The notes beneath the pieces were generated by a model. The model did not search any database and was not told where the DNA came from. It worked only from the letters and a program-made list of their open reading frames with translations. A stretch of 64,000 bases of DNA from Phycisphaerae bacterium (GTDB lineage: Bacteria > Planctomycetota > Phycisphaerae > Sedimentisphaerales > Anaerobacaceae). Below, piece after piece: positions 16,161-52,696 of this stretch. The translations under genes and the position numbers were made by a program. How positions within the stretch are numbered: the first letter of the stretch is position 1; each line of letters opens with the position of its first letter. The stretch lies in assembly GCA_026386805.1 (NCBI GenBank), contig JAPLMX010000080.1:1-64000 (forward strand), given 5' to 3'.

Positions 16161-16200
16161 GTGATCTATATCATAAATCATCAATCATAAATCGTCAACT
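16161..16200. repeat. heptad-periodic repeat (ATATCAT AAATCAT CAATCAT AAATCGT)
   Basis: 7-nt register 16168-16195, overlapping the stop codon of the RND gene. Confidence 0.65.
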
Positions 16201-19200
16201 CCTGGCGTAGGCCATGAAGTAGATCATGGGCACGACGACCAGCGTGAACAGCGTCGAGACGAGCAGGCCGAAGATCAGCGACCAGGCTAGGCCGGAGAAG
16301 ATCGGGTCCAGGGTAATGGGCCAGGCCGCCAGCATGGCCGCCAGCGAGGTCAGCAGGATCGGCCGGGTCCGCAGGGCGCCCGCTTCGAGCAATGAGTTCA
16401 GGAGCGGCTTGCCCTCCTTCTTGCGCTCTTCGACGAACTCGATGAGCAGAATCGCATTGCGCGTGGCGATGCCGGAAAGGGCGATGATCCCGATCATCGC
16501 GGTCGCCGTGAAGTAGACCGGGTCGCTCCAACCATCCACGTTTTTCGCGGTCAGCGCGTTGAGCAGCCAAAAGCCCGGCATGATGCCGATCACCGTCAGC
16601 GGCAAGGCAACCAGTTGGATCGCCGGCAGCAGATAGCTCTGCGTCTGGTACAGCAACAGGACGTAGATCCCCAGCACAGCCACGCTAAAGGCGATTCCCA
16701 GGTCGCGGAAGACCCGGATGGTGACTTCCCACTCCCCTTCCCCTGCCCATTTGACCATCAAGTTGCTCAAGGCGGGCTCGTTCTTCACCTTGTCCTCCAG
16801 TTGAAAGACGGCCACCGGCGGCGGCAGACCCGCCGTGTCCCCGAAAACGTAGACCACCGGCCGCAGGTTCTTGTGATAGATGGGCTGGTCGATCGTCGTT
16901 TCCTCAAATCGGCCCAGTTCCACGAGCGGGACCGCCTCGCCACCAGCGCTGCGGACCGTAAGCTGCCCGAGCCGGCTCACTTGGCTTCGCTGGTCCCGCG
17001 GCAGCCGCAAGGCAATCCATACGGGGTTCACCTGGTCGCCCAGCCGCAGTGATACGGGCTTGGAGCCTTGCACCGCGCCATCGAGCAATTGGGCGATCTG
17101 GGAATCGGTGATGCCGTTGAGCGCCGCCTTGGTACGATCCACCACGAAACGCAGCCGGGTCTGCGGGGCGACCAGCACATCGTCCACGTCCACGACGTTC
17201 GGCGTCTGTTCCATCAGCCTGCGAACCTGGCGTGCTCCGGCCGCCAGATCGCTATAGGACTGCCCGGCCGAGCCGTACACCTCGGCCACCAGCGTGCTGA
17301 TGACCGGCGGTCCCGGCGGGGATTCGACGATCTTGATATTCGCCCCGTCCTTGGCCGCGATGGCCTGCAGGTCGTTCCGCACACGCAGGGCAATGGCGTG
17401 GCTCTGCTGCGCCCGGCGTTTCTTGGACACGAGATTGAAGCGGACATCCGCCACGTTGGCCCCCTGCCGGAGGTAGTAGTGCCGGACCAGCCCGTTGAAG
17501 TCGATCGGGCTGCTCGTCCCGGCGGTCGTCGTCACGTCCGTCACTTCTGGCAGCCGCATCAGGTATTCGGCAAGGTCCTGGGCCACCGCTTCGGTCGCTT
17601 CGAGGGTTGTGCCCTCCGGCATATCAATCACAACCTGCAACTCGCTCTTATTGTCGAAGGGAAGCATCTTGAGCGGCACGGCCTGCCACAGGACCAGCAA
17701 TCCGGCAAAGACCAGCAACAGGACAATCGCACCCAGAATGCCCCATTGCAAAGACCGGCGGTCGAAGATCGGCATCATAATCCCTCTGTACACGCGATAC
17801 AGCCGGCTTTCTTCGAGGACGAAGGTCTTGGCGTGCGAATGCCCGGCGGCGGCCCGCAGGAACCGATAGCTCAGCCACGGCGTGATCGTGAACGCCACGA
17901 GCAGACTCATGAGCATGGCGATGGGCACGTTTAGCGCCATCGGGGCCATGTAGGGTCCCATCATGCCCGTAATGAAGAACATCGGGATGAACGAGATGAT
18001 AACCGCCAGGGTCGCCAGGATGATCGGCGGCCGGACTTCATTGACGGCCCGCACGATGGCCCGGTACGGGTCCAGCAGCCGCATGGCGAAATGCCGGTGG
18101 ATATTCTCCACGTCCACAATCGGGTCATCCACCACCAGCCCCAGCGAGAGAATCAACGCAAAGAGTGTCACGCGGTTGATCGTGTAGCCCAAGAGCAGGT
18201 TGATGAGCAGCGTGATGCTGAACGTGATCGGCACGGCCACCGCGATGATCAGCCCCTCCCGCCAGCCCAGACTGTAGGCCAGCAGCGCCACGACAATCGC
18301 AATCGCCACCAATAGCGCCTCGATCAGATCGTTGACCTTCTCATTGGCGGTGTGGCCGTAATCGCGCGTCACCCGCACGTGGACGTCTTCCGGCAAGACC
18401 TCCTTCTGAAATGTCAGGGCTGTCTTCTTTACATCCTGGGACACCACGACGGCATTGGTCCCCTTGCGCTTGGCGACCGCCACCGTTACCGCGGCGTAGT
18501 CCTGCTGCCTCCCAATGCCGGCGGGCATCGCCTCCGCCTCTGCCAACGGATCATACTCCGTATACGCCTGGGGTCCGAAGATGATCCGGGAGTATGTCGT
18601 GGCCTCCGCCGGACCATCCTCCACGTCGGCCACCTGCTTGAGGAACACCGGCCTCTGGTCGTTGACGCTCACGACGAGGTTCTCGACCGTCTCGGCCGTG
18701 CCCAGGAATTCACCTGCTTGGAGCCGAATTGCCTGGTCCGTCTGCACCAGTTCGCCGCTCAGGAGCGACGCATTCGCTCCCTGCAAGGCCCGCTGTATAT
18801 CGCACAGGGTCACGTTATGCCCGGCCATTCTGTTGGCCGAAAGGCGCACGGCGATCTCCCGGGGCCGGCCCCCGACCACATAAGTCCGTCCGGCATTCTT
18901 CACGGCCTGTAAGCGAATCTCCAGCTCCTCCGCCATCCGCCGAAGCTCATAATCGCTGTAGGCCGGGCTGTATAAGGTCAGGTTCACGATGGGCACATCG
19001 TCGATCTCGACCGGCTTGACGACCCACCCCGTGACGCCCGGGGGCACCTGGTCGATATTGGCCTGGATCTTGTTGTGCAGCTTGACCCAGCTCCGCTCCA
19101 GATCCTGGCCTACGTAGAAGCGGACGGTGACGACCGCCTGGCTGGGCATGCTCGTCGAGTACACGTATTCCACGCCGGGGATCTGGTAGATCAGCTTTTC

Positions 19201-19473
19201 GAGCCGGGTGGAGACCTGCCGCTCCACTTCCGCTGCGTCGGCCCCCGGCATGGAGATCATCACGTCCGCCATGGGCACGATGATCTGCGGGTCTTCCTCG
19301 CGCGGCGTAATCAGCAGCGACGCCACCCCGGCGATCAAGCTCATGATAATCAGCAGGACCGACAGATTGCCCTTGAGAAACGTCTCGACAATCCGCGTCA
19401 TCCAGTCATGGCCTTCGCCGGCCTTGCCTGACGAATGAGTCTCGTGCTCAACTTCTTTGTCTGGTTTGCCCAT
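16195..19473 (-). CDS. efflux RND transporter permease (AcrB/HAE1-like)
   Basis: 1092 aa; SMPGADAAEVERQVSTRLE, GLVVDDPIVDVENI, ALSGIATRNAILLIEF. Confidence 0.9.
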   Translation of the reverse strand: MGKPDKEVEHETHSSGKAGEGHDWMTRIVETFLKGNLSVLLIIMSLIAGVASLLITPREEDPQIIVPMADVMISMPGADAAEVERQVSTRLEKLIYQIPGVEYVYSTSMPSQAVVTVRFYVGQDLERSWVKLHNKIQANIDQVPPGVTGWVVKPVEIDDVPIVNLTLYSPAYSDYELRRMAEELEIRLQAVKNAGRTYVVGGRPREIAVRLSANRMAGHNVTLCDIQRALQGANASLLSGELVQTDQAIRLQAGEFLGTAETVENLVVSVNDQRPVFLKQVADVEDGPAEATTYSRIIFGPQAYTEYDPLAEAEAMPAGIGRQQDYAAVTVAVAKRKGTNAVVVSQDVKKTALTFQKEVLPEDVHVRVTRDYGHTANEKVNDLIEALLVAIAIVVALLAYSLGWREGLIIAVAVPITFSITLLINLLLGYTINRVTLFALILSLGLVVDDPIVDVENIHRHFAMRLLDPYRAIVRAVNEVRPPIILATLAVIISFIPMFFITGMMGPYMAPMALNVPIAMLMSLLVAFTITPWLSYRFLRAAAGHSHAKTFVLEESRLYRVYRGIMMPIFDRRSLQWGILGAIVLLLVFAGLLVLWQAVPLKMLPFDNKSELQVVIDMPEGTTLEATEAVAQDLAEYLMRLPEVTDVTTTAGTSSPIDFNGLVRHYYLRQGANVADVRFNLVSKKRRAQQSHAIALRVRNDLQAIAAKDGANIKIVESPPGPPVISTLVAEVYGSAGQSYSDLAAGARQVRRLMEQTPNVVDVDDVLVAPQTRLRFVVDRTKAALNGITDSQIAQLLDGAVQGSKPVSLRLGDQVNPVWIALRLPRDQRSQVSRLGQLTVRSAGGEAVPLVELGRFEETTIDQPIYHKNLRPVVYVFGDTAGLPPPVAVFQLEDKVKNEPALSNLMVKWAGEGEWEVTIRVFRDLGIAFSVAVLGIYVLLLYQTQSYLLPAIQLVALPLTVIGIMPGFWLLNALTAKNVDGWSDPVYFTATAMIGIIALSGIATRNAILLIEFVEERKKEGKPLLNSLLEAGALRTRPILLTSLAAMLAAWPITLDPIFSGLAWSLIFGLLVSTLFTLVVVPMIYFMAYARS

Positions 19474-19493: not shown

Positions 19494-19583
19494 GATTTTT
19501 GATTGTCTATTTTTGATTGAGGAGCTGCACCGCACTCCTTCTTCAATCAACAATCAGACATCAAAAATCAAAAATCGACGATC
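19494..19583. repeat. heptad-periodic stem-loop (GATTTTT GATTGTC TATTTTT GATTGAG ... TTCAATC AACAATC AGACATC AAAAATC AAAAATC)
   Basis: Perfect 7-nt register on both arms; overlaps 3' end of the adaptor CDS. Confidence 0.75.
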
Positions 19584-20950
19584 ACTCGCTCCGCCGGCTT
19601 GAGGCCACTGAGCACCTCGACCGTGTCGTCGTGCGGCCGGCCGAGAGTCACGAACCGCCGATGCGGGACGCCTCTGGCATCGATGACATCCAGGAGATGG
19701 AGCTGACCGACCTGGCGGACCGCCCGTGCCGGGATGACCAGCGCCTGGTACGTGCCCGTCGGAACCGCCAGCGTGCCGAACTGCCCGCTGACCAAGCCTG
19801 CCTGCGCCGGCAGCGAGATTTTGACCAGCAACGTCCGCGTGCGCGGGTCGGCCTGCGGGACGATCTCTCGAACCGTCCCCTGCAGTGTCTGCTGGATGGC
19901 GTCGATTCGCACGTCGAGCTTCTGGTCGAATTTCATCCCCGCCACGAGCGATTCCGCCACCACGGCATGGAACTCCGGCTCGGCTGACTTTTCGATGACA
20001 AAGAGAGGCTGCCCCGGCATGACCATGTCGCCGGCGTCGATTGTCTTCCGCACGAGCCTACCACTGAACGGGGCCTCGATGGTCGTGTAGCTGAGCATCA
20101 CCTGCGCCTCGCGGACCGCGGCAACCGATTGCTCCCTCTGGGCCTCCAGGCGTGCCGCGTCGCTGCGAACCGCCACCACCTGCTGGACCGCAGCCCGGAC
20201 CTGGGCCTCGGCGACCTCCTTCTGGGCGCGGGCGTGGTCAAGCTGCTGGCTGGTCCCCGCCCCACTGGCCTGCAGGGTCTCCATCCGCTTGAAATCCGTC
20301 AGGGCCTGCTCGGCCTGGGCTTCGACCACCTGTTGCTGGGCCTGGGCCGCCGCCAGTTGCGCCGCCGCTCCGGCCAGGGCCTTTTCCGACGCCGTGACCT
20401 GGGTCTGGGCCTGGCTGAGCTTCGCTTCAATGTCCCGGCTGTCCAACCGGGCCAGCACGGTCGGCCCCAGTGTCGAGGGCGTGGGGCCCCCCAACGCGGA
20501 ATTATGCGTTGGGGACCCCGTCCCGCCCTCGGATCGCGGGCTGGAAGCCCGCGACACGGACCCGGCCTCCGGCCCCGTCACCGCCTGGCCTTCCTGCACG
20601 AGCACCTCGCGAACCTGGGCCATGATCCGTCCGGCCACCTCGGCCCGCGCGCGAGTCTGCACCGTGCCCACTTGGTCAACAATCAATGGGAAGGTCCGCA
20701 TCTCGACGGGTTGGCTCCGCGCCGCGGTGGCCGGAGCCTTTGCGGGCGTCGCGGGCGCGGCGGCTCGGATCTTGTCGAGAAAAGCACCCGATAGCCATAG
20801 CATCAGGACGATCAAGACCGCCACGAGCATCAGTATCTTGCCGATTTCCCAAACGGCCGCCTGGGAGCGTCTCAGCGCCGAAAGCAATGTTCGGGGAATC
20901 TTCTTCGTTGCACGGATGATCCTGTTCATGGCCATAGGTTCTCCATACAA
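19568..20950 (-). CDS. efflux RND periplasmic adaptor (HlyD/AcrA-like); start probably at a downstream Met
   Basis: Coiled-coil hairpin AQTQVTASEKALAGAAAQLAAAQAQ; YTTIEAPFSGRLVRKTIDAGDMV. Confidence 0.87.
   Translation of the reverse strand: MYGEPMAMNRIIRATKKIPRTLLSALRRSQAAVWEIGKILMLVAVLIVLMLWLSGAFLDKIRAAAPATPAKAPATAARSQPVEMRTFPLIVDQVGTVQTRARAEVAGRIMAQVREVLVQEGQAVTGPEAGSVSRASSPRSEGGTGSPTHNSALGGPTPSTLGPTVLARLDSRDIEAKLSQAQTQVTASEKALAGAAAQLAAAQAQQQVVEAQAEQALTDFKRMETLQASGAGTSQQLDHARAQKEVAEAQVRAAVQQVVAVRSDAARLEAQREQSVAAVREAQVMLSYTTIEAPFSGRLVRKTIDAGDMVMPGQPLFVIEKSAEPEFHAVVAESLVAGMKFDQKLDVRIDAIQQTLQGTVREIVPQADPRTRTLLVKISLPAQAGLVSGQFGTLAVPTGTYQALVIPARAVRQVGQLHLLDVIDARGVPHRRFVTLGRPHDDTVEVLSGLKPAERVIVDF
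20470..20557. repeat. 88-nt nested palindromic element inside the adaptor CDS (encodes SVSRASSPRSEGGTGSPTHNSALGGPTPST)
   Basis: Ends GTGTCG...CGACAC; inner GGGGTCCCCAACGC...GCGTTGGGGGGCCCC palindrome. Confidence 0.8.
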
Positions 20951-43605: not shown

Positions 43606-43821
43606 CGAAACAGGTTCGTTTCCCCCGCAGGCACCCCCTAGCGCAGATGGCGTCGGCGAGCTTTTGAATTTGACGCATCGGAGAGAGGTGACTACAATCG
43701 CGCCCGGTATGGTTGGCCGTCACAGGGCGAAGTAGGGTTCCCAAACGCGATGGGTCGCGTCTGGGGTCCCGATCCGCCGCCGAAACCGGGTCCGTCACAG
43801 AGAAAGAAGAGGTGAAGGAGC

Positions 43822-45332: not shown

Positions 45333-48290
45333 TCAACGGGCCTTCGGCTCCCGTGCGGCCCGCAGGTCCTCCGGGGCGATGCCGGCCCCCGGCTGGAACT
45401 CGTCGCTCATCGTATAGCGAATCAGCTCGTCCAGGCAATAGGCGGCTGCCGGATCGCCTGCCGGCACCGCGGCGGAGAAGTTGAACCCGCTGACTAAGAG
45501 TCTTCCCGGACCGACCTTCGTCTCGAACAGAAGGGCTTTGCGCGTCAGGCGCTGGGGCGTATCAATCATGCGGACGATGGGCTCGCCGGTCACGTGGGTC
45601 TGGTCGAGGAGAATCGCCTTGCCGCCCTGGACGAGGTCGTAGAACTGCAGGTCGCACCAGCCTTCTGTGGGCATGGCCTTCAGCGCCGGGTGTTGCGGAT
45701 CGAAGATCGTGCCGACGTGGCCGGCGGGGTCGCCCGGGTCCCAGCCGGAGGGCCGAAAGCGCGTCATGGCCGTGGGAAACACCGGTCCCGGATCAAGCAT
45801 CAGCACCCGTCCGCCGGCCGCCAAGCGATCTAACACTCCTTGCTCCCAGCGGTCGGCGACCAGTACCGCTGTCGGTGCGGAGGTCGATCGAGGGTACTGG
45901 CGCCGGAGCCATTCGGAGCCGAGGACCATGAATTCGCCCCGCACGACCCGCTCGGCCGGGAAGCACCAGAGTTTCCAGTCGTTCGTCGCGGTGCCGTGCT
46001 TGTCTTCGAGCCGGACGACTAAGCCAAGCTGCTCCGCGTGCGGCCGCTGCGGAATCTCGAACGAGATGGTTGTCAACTGCCTGACCTCGCCACAGGGGAT
46101 CGTCAGGCCCGCCTGTGACCCGCTCGCCAGACGTTCATCCCCGGCAAGCAACTCCCATCGCAGAGTCGCACCCTGCGTGGCCTCCTGCTCGTAGCGTGAC
46201 ACATACAACGGGAACTCGGCCTTTTCGCCAAACCGGTAATTGCGCCGGTCCTGGGCGATCAGCAGGACCGTTGGAGCATTGAACTTGCGGAACTCCTCGC
46301 TTGTGACCGCCTTCGGCCGATAGAACATGTCCACGACGCCCTCAGCGCACCAGGGATAGTCCTGAAAGAGCCAGACGTGATAGCCCTGGAGGTTCGACCG
46401 CCGGGCCGCTTCGATGTTCGTCTTGAGGCACGCGGCCTGGAGCCGATTCGAGCGATCCACCCACTGCGCGTAGACATCCTCCCACGTGTCGCGGGCTTCC
46501 AGCCCGCGATTCGAGGGCGGGACGCCCTCGACACCAACGGCCACACCCACCTTTCTGGCATTGTCTCTCGCATCGTACAACCAATAGGGTCTCAGACCCT
46601 CGTGGAACAGGTCGATCTGCCGCAGATCGGGCAGCGTGACAAAATAGCCCATCTCGTGAGCGCCGACCGGCGGTGGCACAGGATCGAACCGATACTTGGC
46701 ATCCTTGTACCCGCACGATGACGACTCGTTGAACTGCCACACGCCAAAGTCGAGGGTTGGGCGGGGCTTACGCGAGACGCCGTCCGAGTCGATCACCGGC
46801 CGGGTCGGATCGAGCTCCTTGGCCAGCCTGTACATCTCGGGGGCCTGCTCGAAGCTGTCGTACAGCTCGTTGCCCATGCACCAGGTGACAATTGAAGGAT
46901 GATTGCGGTTCCGCTGAATCACTTCTTGCCAGAGCTTGAGATAGAGAGCCTTGGTCTCGGGTTTCGACGCGAGGTCCCAACGGTAGGCGATAGGGAACTC
47001 CGGCTGGAGCATGATGCCCATCTCGTCAGCAACGTCGAGATACTCCTGCCCGGGCATCCAACTGTGGTGCCGGGCGTAATTGAAGCCGAAGTCCTTGACG
47101 ATCCGGAAGCGTCGTCGGTACTCGTTCTGATCGGCGGGCGGCGCGATGGTATTCGGGTAGATGCAGTCGTCGCCATAGCCCCGCAGAAAGATCGGCCGGC
47201 CGTTGAGCAGGAACTTTCCGCCCTCGACCCGGAACTCGCGCATGCCGAACCGAACCCGCGTCTCATCAAGCTGATTCTCCCCATCGAAAAGCGTCACGCG
47301 AGCAGAGTAAAGGTACGGCGTCGAGGGCGACCACAGCTTTGCTCCGGGAAGCTTCAGCGTCACCACGCCCGGCGAGCCTGCTGACAATGCCCTCTCCCCT
47401 TGCGTAAGGCGCTGCCCCTGCTGATCGAACACCTGCACACCGACCCGCAACTGGTCGCGTCCTGCGTCGCCTGCGTGCCCGGGCGTCACGCGAACCTCCG
47501 CTTCCTCTTGGGAAACGTGCGGCACCACAAAAGCGTCGTCGATCCACGTATCCTCCGTCGCCTCCAGTGAGACCTTGCGATGAACGCCGCCCCACGTGAG
47601 ATAGAGGAAGTCGAGCGTATCCATGCAGCCCATGAGCGGATCGATATCACGATTTCGCCGAGCATCAACCCGCAAAGTGATCGTCGCATCCCGTCCCGCC
47701 GAGACGAGCTTCGTCACATCACATTCGAACGGCACCACGTAACCGATGTGCGCACCGACATGTCTGCCGTCGATCCAGACATCGGCGTTCCGATGCACGC
47801 CGCCGAACTTGAGCCAGATCGTCCTGCCCTGCCAGTCCTCCGGGACATGGATGACCCGCCGATACCAGCCCGGCCCCGGATAAACATGAAAGAGCCTGTC
47901 CGCTTCCGTGCCGGGGCCGCGCAGTTTCTCCTCGACCGGCTTGGCCAAGTACCGCTGCAACTGCTCCTTCGTATCGAACTCAATGCCCTGCGCGTTCCAC
48001 GCCCCCGGCACTTGGATCCGACGCTGGAACTGCCGCCCATCCTCAAACCACTTGTCGCGAACACCCACATCCTCCGGATCGGTTTCGAACTGCCATGCAC
48101 CGCAAAGGTCAACTTCACGCAGAGCCTGAGCCACAGGAAGGCGATCGGCACCTGATTCGGCAGCGGTGGCCGCACTGCTCGCAAGGGCGGGCCAGGCCGC
48201 CGCCCCGGCAGCCGCCGCTGGATAGATCAAGCTCCCGATGAGAAAAACACGAAACGACACTGATGACCCCCACCGCATCCACTGACGCAT
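45333..48290 (-). CDS. glycoside hydrolase family 2 protein
   Basis: 985 aa; sugar-binding, Ig-like and TIM-barrel segments; RYHHSWMPGQEYLDVADEMG..., WCMGNELYDSF. Confidence 0.85.
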   Translation of the reverse strand: MRQWMRWGSSVSFRVFLIGSLIYPAAAAGAAAWPALASSAATAAESGADRLPVAQALREVDLCGAWQFETDPEDVGVRDKWFEDGRQFQRRIQVPGAWNAQGIEFDTKEQLQRYLAKPVEEKLRGPGTEADRLFHVYPGPGWYRRVIHVPEDWQGRTIWLKFGGVHRNADVWIDGRHVGAHIGYVVPFECDVTKLVSAGRDATITLRVDARRNRDIDPLMGCMDTLDFLYLTWGGVHRKVSLEATEDTWIDDAFVVPHVSQEEAEVRVTPGHAGDAGRDQLRVGVQVFDQQGQRLTQGERALSAGSPGVVTLKLPGAKLWSPSTPYLYSARVTLFDGENQLDETRVRFGMREFRVEGGKFLLNGRPIFLRGYGDDCIYPNTIAPPADQNEYRRRFRIVKDFGFNYARHHSWMPGQEYLDVADEMGIMLQPEFPIAYRWDLASKPETKALYLKLWQEVIQRNRNHPSIVTWCMGNELYDSFEQAPEMYRLAKELDPTRPVIDSDGVSRKPRPTLDFGVWQFNESSSCGYKDAKYRFDPVPPPVGAHEMGYFVTLPDLRQIDLFHEGLRPYWLYDARDNARKVGVAVGVEGVPPSNRGLEARDTWEDVYAQWVDRSNRLQAACLKTNIEAARRSNLQGYHVWLFQDYPWCAEGVVDMFYRPKAVTSEEFRKFNAPTVLLIAQDRRNYRFGEKAEFPLYVSRYEQEATQGATLRWELLAGDERLASGSQAGLTIPCGEVRQLTTISFEIPQRPHAEQLGLVVRLEDKHGTATNDWKLWCFPAERVVRGEFMVLGSEWLRRQYPRSTSAPTAVLVADRWEQGVLDRLAAGGRVLMLDPGPVFPTAMTRFRPSGWDPGDPAGHVGTIFDPQHPALKAMPTEGWCDLQFYDLVQGGKAILLDQTHVTGEPIVRMIDTPQRLTRKALLFETKVGPGRLLVSGFNFSAAVPAGDPAAAYCLDELIRYTMSDEFQPGAGIAPEDLRAAREPKAR
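46486..46534. repeat. 49-nt palindromic element inside the GH2 CDS (encodes GVEGVPPSNRGLEARDT)
   Basis: GTGTCGCGGGCTTCCAGCCCGCGATTCGAGGGCGGGACGCCCTCGACAC. Confidence 0.85.
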
Positions 48291-52554: not shown

Positions 52555-52696
52555 GTGGCGAGGGCGTCCCGCCCTTGCGTGTCGCGGGCATCCTGCCCGC
52601 GATCCGAGGGCCGGGGTCCCCCAACGCGATCTCTTCGCGTTTGGGAACCCACGAGGCCCTCGTCACGAAAGAGCAAGGCCGGGACGGCCTCGCCAC
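52555..52696. repeat. 142-nt composite nested palindromic element
   Basis: Outer arms GTGGCGAGGGCGTCCCGCCCTTG / CAAGGCCGGGACGGCCTCGCCAC enclosing the GTGTCGCGGGC..GCCCGCGATCCGAG and GGGGTCCCCCAACGC..GCGTTTGGGAACCC modules. Confidence 0.85.

Follow-up and report, generated by a model that had tools for sequence, protein, structure and literature searches.

A 37-nt palindrome in the hairpin loop of a REPIN-like element within a planctomycete adaptor gene

We found that an adaptor gene of a Phycisphaerae bacterium contains an 88-nt composite palindrome at positions 20470–20557 (minus strand), in which a 49-nt double hairpin (the host) is split by the 39-nt insertion of a second palindrome (the guest). 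It is very probable, in our view, that the locus unites two mobile families of very short palindromes, unrelated to each other: a REPIN-like host in the adaptor gene and a 37-nt guest in a loop of that host. Positions are those of the window, by which we mean the whole stretch of 64,000 nt that was analysed. A preliminary description of the window had proposed that one mobile palindrome sits inside another, and this is now supported by the independent occurrence of the two modules, by empty and filled sites and by the discrete nature of the 39-nt guest insertion.

The composite and the adaptor gene

On the coding (minus) strand the composite consists of GTGTCGCGGGCTTCCAGCCCGCGATCCGAGGGCGGGAC, GGGGTCCCCAACGCATAATTCCGCGTTGGGGGGCCCC and ACGCCCTCGACAC in that order, and its coordinates, its sequence as a 49-nt element with a 39-nt insert, and its encoded peptide are all as first reported. 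The first host hairpin is arm A (TCGCGGGC-TTCCA-GCCCGCGA; 20534–20554, minus strand). The second, arm B (GAGGGC-GGGAC-GCCCTC; 20470–20532, minus strand, with the right outer CAC included), is an inverted copy of the arm-A type, and its loop is the one split by the guest. When the 39 nt are removed, a single-base difference (C/T) from the element at 46486–46534 is left, as had been claimed. The insert had also been described as a 39-nt palindrome. It is palindromic and its length is indeed 39 nt, but the imperfect palindrome itself occupies only 37 nt (20483–20519, minus strand) and the remaining 2 nt are a repeated AC. The first AC lies at 20520–20521 and the second at 20481–20482 (both minus strand; GT on the plus strand), forming a 2-nt target duplication. 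The guest was matched by covariance model R1 at G000:C190:20483-20519 (E 4.3e-9), where G000 denotes this genome.

The composite folds as DNA with a z-score of −7.5 and none of 200 shuffled sequences was as stable; the folded single strand has two stems, the second of which is lengthened by the guest. A 19-mer from the arm has five matches within the window, against 0.15 expected.

The gene carrying the composite is an RND/HlyD-type periplasmic adaptor ORF (19568–20950, minus strand; Pfam HlyD_D23, 7.7e-14) that adjoins an RND pump ORF at 16195–19473, and its reading frame runs uninterrupted through the composite, as had been noted. We compared it with the adaptor of a same-genus genome (G002), which is 87% identical over the C-terminal part. 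The G002 protein is without the insert, having GPEAG-KEGKA-TVL where this adaptor has GPEAG-S...PSTLGP-TVL, a net difference of 28 residues or 84 nt. The alignment of orthologues suggested earlier, in search of a clean 80–90 nt indel, therefore did reveal an indel of that size but not a clean one: the net length is 84 nt rather than 88 or 90 because the linker beside the insert differs as well, and the boundaries of the host insertion are consequently not clean. The insert peptide might have been conserved in orthologues with unrelated DNA, which would have spoken against a mobile element; the single close orthologue (G002) lacks the peptide, and more distant adaptors are likewise without the insert.

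In an AlphaFold model of the adaptor, residues 132–160 have pLDDT values below 50 and lie between two lipoyl-domain strands, while the rest is well modelled (mean 82). The residues encoded by the insert (about 130–160) are thus predicted to form a disordered loop. Given the orthologues without the insert and the position of the low-pLDDT segment between the lipoyl-domain strands, the insert is most simply seen as lengthening a surface loop that already varied. The host, a REPIN-like inverted doublet, would have entered this lipoyl-domain loop in frame, and the guest would have arrived later, entering the second host hairpin (GGGC-GGGAC-GCCC) at its 5-nt loop. The resulting insert would be nearly neutral for the adaptor, its stop-free peptide being accommodated as a disordered surface loop.

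Host and guest families in this and related genomes

Thirty-three aligned copies of the host share the layout GTG-TCGCGGGC-NTCCN-GCCCGCGA-T-TCGAGGGC-NGGAN-GCCCTCGA-CAC. In each, the second hairpin repeats the type of the first in inverted orientation, the arrangement seen in REP doublets (REPINs). Among 20 distinct copies, the pair closing the first loop is A-T in 10, T-A in seven and G-C in one, and the covariation score of the host was reached by none of 500 shuffles. Copies start with GTGTCG and finish with CAC (mostly CGACAC, with a few CGCCAC), and the consensus, read off the sequence, is open in all six frames. A 22-mer host arm occurs at no fewer than 74 places in this genome with two mismatches or fewer, compared with none for the reversed control, and at nearly all host sites genome-wide the flanks are unrelated. 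The uninterrupted host at 46486–46534 (plus strand) lies inside a glycoside hydrolase family 2 ORF on the minus strand, whose G008 orthologue is empty. Empty sites of the host span net lengths of 39–90 nt, which gives no support to a fixed net length of 51 nt (49 + 2).

Of 52 complete host copies, 33 lie in frame in ORFs that bear a coding signature to either side of the element. Genes for CarA, a histidine kinase and glycoside hydrolases (Pfam) are among them, and within CarA the element is found between the CPSase and GATase domains. Coding status was assigned from GC content by codon position, supplemented by Pfam for ten genes (six with a strong match). As 58% of random G002 positions pass a similar coding test, hosts are not depleted in genes. 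Guests, in contrast, are depleted (18 of 78 copies in genes).

A single frame and orientation (xVEGVPPSNRGQDARDT) is used by 18 of the 33 in-gene host copies, with a nominal P of 8e-7 for a pattern noticed post hoc. Together with the very stable fold of the 88-nt composite as RNA (z −6.6), this over-used frame could be taken to mean that the nested hairpin persists because it has a function, either as an RNA structure acting in the mRNA or as a useful adaptor peptide. We consider such a function quite improbable, since the G002 orthologue does without the insert, the same modules also lie in intergenic DNA and, in several frames, within genes of unrelated kinds, and the encoded segment is predicted to be disordered.

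Two further features of the host were seen in passing. One host is common to G000 and G002 (L129:1497-1545 and L212) and identical at 49 of 49 bases, with flanks that are only about 70–79% identical; this could reflect constraint, a conversion between copies or insertion in parallel. At four loci (L101, L109, L116 and L132) hosts are flanked by hairpins belonging to another palindrome family (GTAGTGACGCC.../...GGGCACACTAC), which gives mosaic arrays.

The guest is a separate family. A 14-mer guest half gave 48 matches in this genome compared with one for the reversed control, corresponding to about 40 guest sites, mostly whole palindromes standing alone. One such solitary guest, missed by the earlier reading of the window, lies at 43735–43770 (plus strand) and is present at the same place in G002 (L209). 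The whole element is an inverted repeat, and so has the terminal inverted repeats of a MITE, with CG/AT covariation at a score reached by none of 500 shuffles. With respect to gene context, stem type CC differed between genes and non-genes (P 0.001, post hoc), and the difference in loop type was not significant (P 0.56).

Covariance models made with 33 host and 39 guest sequences detected the host in 22, and the guest in eight, of 63 related genera. Three of the genera (G015, G032 and G035) had 62, 47 and 56 hosts, respectively, and no guests. Guest copy number is high in G000, G002, G003 and G008 and very low in G001, G005 and G007. Counts near 75–85 in these searches should be read as at least that number, and the palindromes match both strands. 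This genome is a draft of 279 contigs, 93.5% complete, and the statistics are based on retrieved stretches. The separate and nested searches that had been suggested thus find each module alone in numbers as well as nested copies, and the possibility that the modules never occur independently is contradicted by the 74 or more host sites, the roughly 40 guests and the genera with hosts only.

Two other readings of the palindromes were rejected. A known RNA family was set aside as Rfam gave no match in the 64,000-nt window. A phage origin was discarded because viral contigs gave no exact match to the host and only two guest-like matches, one palindrome each in the IMG/VR contigs L253 and L254.

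Guest insertion sites, target duplication and nested copies

The guest is a discrete 39-nt insertion. In a sigma-factor-like ORF (L133:628-1242), a guest that adds 13 residues in frame near the N-terminus of the protein is absent from three G002 relatives, the difference being exactly 39 nt, i.e. 37 nt plus GT. The filled site reads GCGT[37]GTCCCC and the empty site in G002 reads GCGTCCCC. At a second locus, a guest fills a host hairpin loop in G002 (L201) and the orthologous site in G000 (L123) is empty over 39 alignment columns. Since 37 + 2 = 39, the guest preserves the reading frame.

In 23 of 78 copies the 2 nt that directly precede the guest are the same as the 2 nt that directly follow it, compared with 5.6 after permutation (maximum 12 in 1000). 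This was repeated with a fresh sample of 40 G003 and G008 guests, taken from model hits and separate from the copies that had shaped the hypothesis, in which 25 of 40 had the duplication, versus 6.5 for the permuted data. When only one copy per flank cluster was counted (the largest cluster contained 17 of 118 copies), the values were 26 of 77 observed and 6.0 permuted (maximum 14 in 2000). The guest therefore has a 2-nt target-site duplication, like a MITE; some nested guests (L172 and L194) are without it.

That the 39 nt arose by local expansion of the hairpin, through slippage or templated repair, rather than by insertion from elsewhere, is hardly credible. The palindromic guest does sit at a stem tip, where both processes can act; however, dozens of unrelated places carry almost the same 37 nt (the guest at L032 differs by one base), and neither the empty sites nor the 2-nt duplications fit such an expansion.

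We examined the potential of the guest targets to form hairpins. A stem of at least 6 bp spans the guest insertion in 12 of 78 copies, where the permuted mean was 2.8 (maximum eight in 500) and random positions gave 1.9%. For the fresh G003 and G008 sample the same measure gave 20 of 40 (permuted mean 7.7, maximum 14), a figure in which several G003 copies, and with them part of the G003 nested excess, are instances of a single larger repeat. When each flank cluster was counted once, stems of at least 6 bp were found in 10 of 77 (permuted 2.1, maximum nine in 2000) and stems of at least 7 bp in eight of 77 (permuted mean 0.8, maximum six in 2000). Deleting 37 + 2 nt rebuilds host-type hairpins, for instance CATGGGC-TTCCA-GCCCATG at L217, and joining the flanks restores a REP hairpin at L217, L286, L185, L137 and L091, the behaviour that characterizes REP-targeting insertion sequences (ISs). 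At L203 one guest sits in the loop of another, and AA is duplicated there. The average guest target is weakly symmetric, with G enriched on its left side and C on its right. The majority of guests lie outside hairpin loops, and loop targeting is thus a preference rather than a requirement.

Nested copies of host and guest are not confined to the adaptor gene and recur in other genomes of the genus. A second copy within the window (52579–52669, plus strand), missed previously, has a different guest in the loop of the second hairpin of a host double hairpin, with a slightly different junction. A looser nested pattern gave seven matches in G000, nine in G002 and 17 in G003, compared with none for the reversed controls; in these counts a site may match on both strands, and a few matches lie outside a host hairpin. 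In G003, a larger repeat (CGCACGACATCTTC-GGCGAGCG-GGGAC[guest]ACGCTCGCC-CTACGAAGAGCG) occurs at many places (L256, L258, L262, L266-L269 and L274), and the loop of its nested guest varies.

The junction CGAGGGCGGGAC/GGGGTCCCC is common to the adaptor, G002:C322, G003:C899 and L093 (Planctomycetota MAG, VGYL01000899.1), which are non-orthologous places. Its recurrence, and that of the G003 larger repeat with the same outer flanks around a nested guest, would fit a composite that is itself mobile, host and guest having been joined once elsewhere and having entered the adaptor as a ready-made 88-nt element. We regard this history as possible but doubtful. Among copies with the same junction, both the host arms (TTCCA, ATCTT, ATCCT) and the guest loops (ATAATTCC, GCAATTCT, GATTCAGC) vary, which argues against recent co-copying of host and guest, and in G000 guest-free hosts at about the same spot are far more common (two nested copies have a full host arm, among at least 74 host sites). 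As the arms and loops vary around an identical junction, the composite may move as a unit or the same loop position may be struck repeatedly.

As an independent element, the guest inserts as a unit, generates a 2-nt target duplication and favours hairpin loops or the centre of short symmetric targets. The combination of a 2-nt footprint and loop targets suggests a hairpin-recognising enzyme, which might act on cruciforms that have been extruded or, at the replication fork, on single-stranded DNA. The duplication would then come from a staggered cut made by the enzyme or from single-strand insertion at an extruded or single-stranded hairpin. It is possible, though less likely than not, that the guest ranks with the smallest insertion elements of bacteria that combine a defined target duplication with a loop preference, and that an enzyme recognising hairpins as both substrate and target moves it in trans; its 37 + 2 nt would make it frame-neutral in genes.

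Relation to known elements and the search for a mobilising enzyme

It has long been asked how REPs and other tiny palindromes spread. An element of 37 nt whose target (the hairpin loop) can be read, and which leaves a 2-nt footprint and has numerous empty sites across species, provides a concrete system in which to find the enzyme. It also illustrates that hairpins as small as 37 bases can act in the manner of insertion elements with a preference for hairpin loops, and that very short selfish DNA can build up in genes as disordered linker peptide without breaking them.

Rickettsia palindromic elements (RPE; PMC3733652) are short palindromes found in frame in many unrelated genes, where they are tolerated as extra peptide. 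The host resembles RPE in that its palindromes lie in frame in many unrelated ORFs, as in the 33 of 52 copies above. It differs in its termini (GTGTCG/CGACAC versus CGTC) and in forming a nested composite, RPE being compared by description only. The small dispersed repeats of cyanobacteria, reportedly the subject of work by Elhai et al. in 2008 (cited in PMC3116915), are likewise very small and mobile; they belong to a different phylum and are likened here by description.

REP doublets (REPINs) and BIMEs consist of two short inverted hairpins with a short spacer, dispersed at high copy number (PMC3116915; PMC2817692), and the host shares all of these features. In contrast to REPINs and BIMEs, well over half of its complete copies lie in coding-like ORFs. 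Both a tag and an association with RAYT were looked for: the host has neither a GTAG head nor a CGTC tag and no flanking RAYT among those found, and we therefore do not class it as a RAYT-REPIN. REPs inside larger or smaller palindromes have been described in A. variabilis, T. roseum and H. neapolitanus, as have in-frame REPs in proteins (Di Nocera et al. 2013, PMC3733652). There the REPs are the inner elements, whereas here the 37-nt family is inner and the REPIN-like doublet outer, with the addition of a 2-nt target duplication and cross-species empty sites.

For the guest, two comparisons are relevant. IS1397, IS621, ISKpn1 and ISPsy8 insert within REP palindromes and joining their flanks restores the REP (PMC1525189). 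The guest likewise enters a REP hairpin that is restored on joining the flanks, but those elements are full ISs with a transposase, whereas the guest is 37 nt long and has no coding capacity. The GC clusters of yeast mitochondria include GC42, a 42-nt GC-rich mobile palindrome with a putative 2-nt target duplication and merging units (PMC4478555). The guest is similar as a mobile palindrome of about 40 nt with a 2-nt duplication and merged units; GC42 is mitochondrial and has the target AG, and the likeness is by description, with no sequence relation claimed. Nested palindromes and REP-targeting ISs therefore have precedent, and the present case is a new combination of known features.

Ten Y1_Tnp loci were found in G000, and none of these genes has a host or guest on both sides; a host-flanked RAYT could be missing as the genome is 93.5% complete. 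The Y1_Tnp genes are flanked by other REPs or by none, and a RAYT was rejected as the mobiliser. Three RAYT-like genes (L068, L069 and L070) have hairpins of their own, some with GTAG-type heads (GTAGGGTGGGGC...GCCCCACC), which are unlike host and guest. A search of about 1.3 Mb for an autonomous IS with guest ends gave no convincing pair of ends around a transposase-sized gap. Facing guest-like ends, possibly chance matches or degraded copies, occur 1802 nt apart at L205:7026-8828 and 460 nt apart at L176:16821-17281. Finally, an ORF of about 949 aa (L143; G000:C226:60000-65300) contains at least three guests, with more guest-like stretches beside them.
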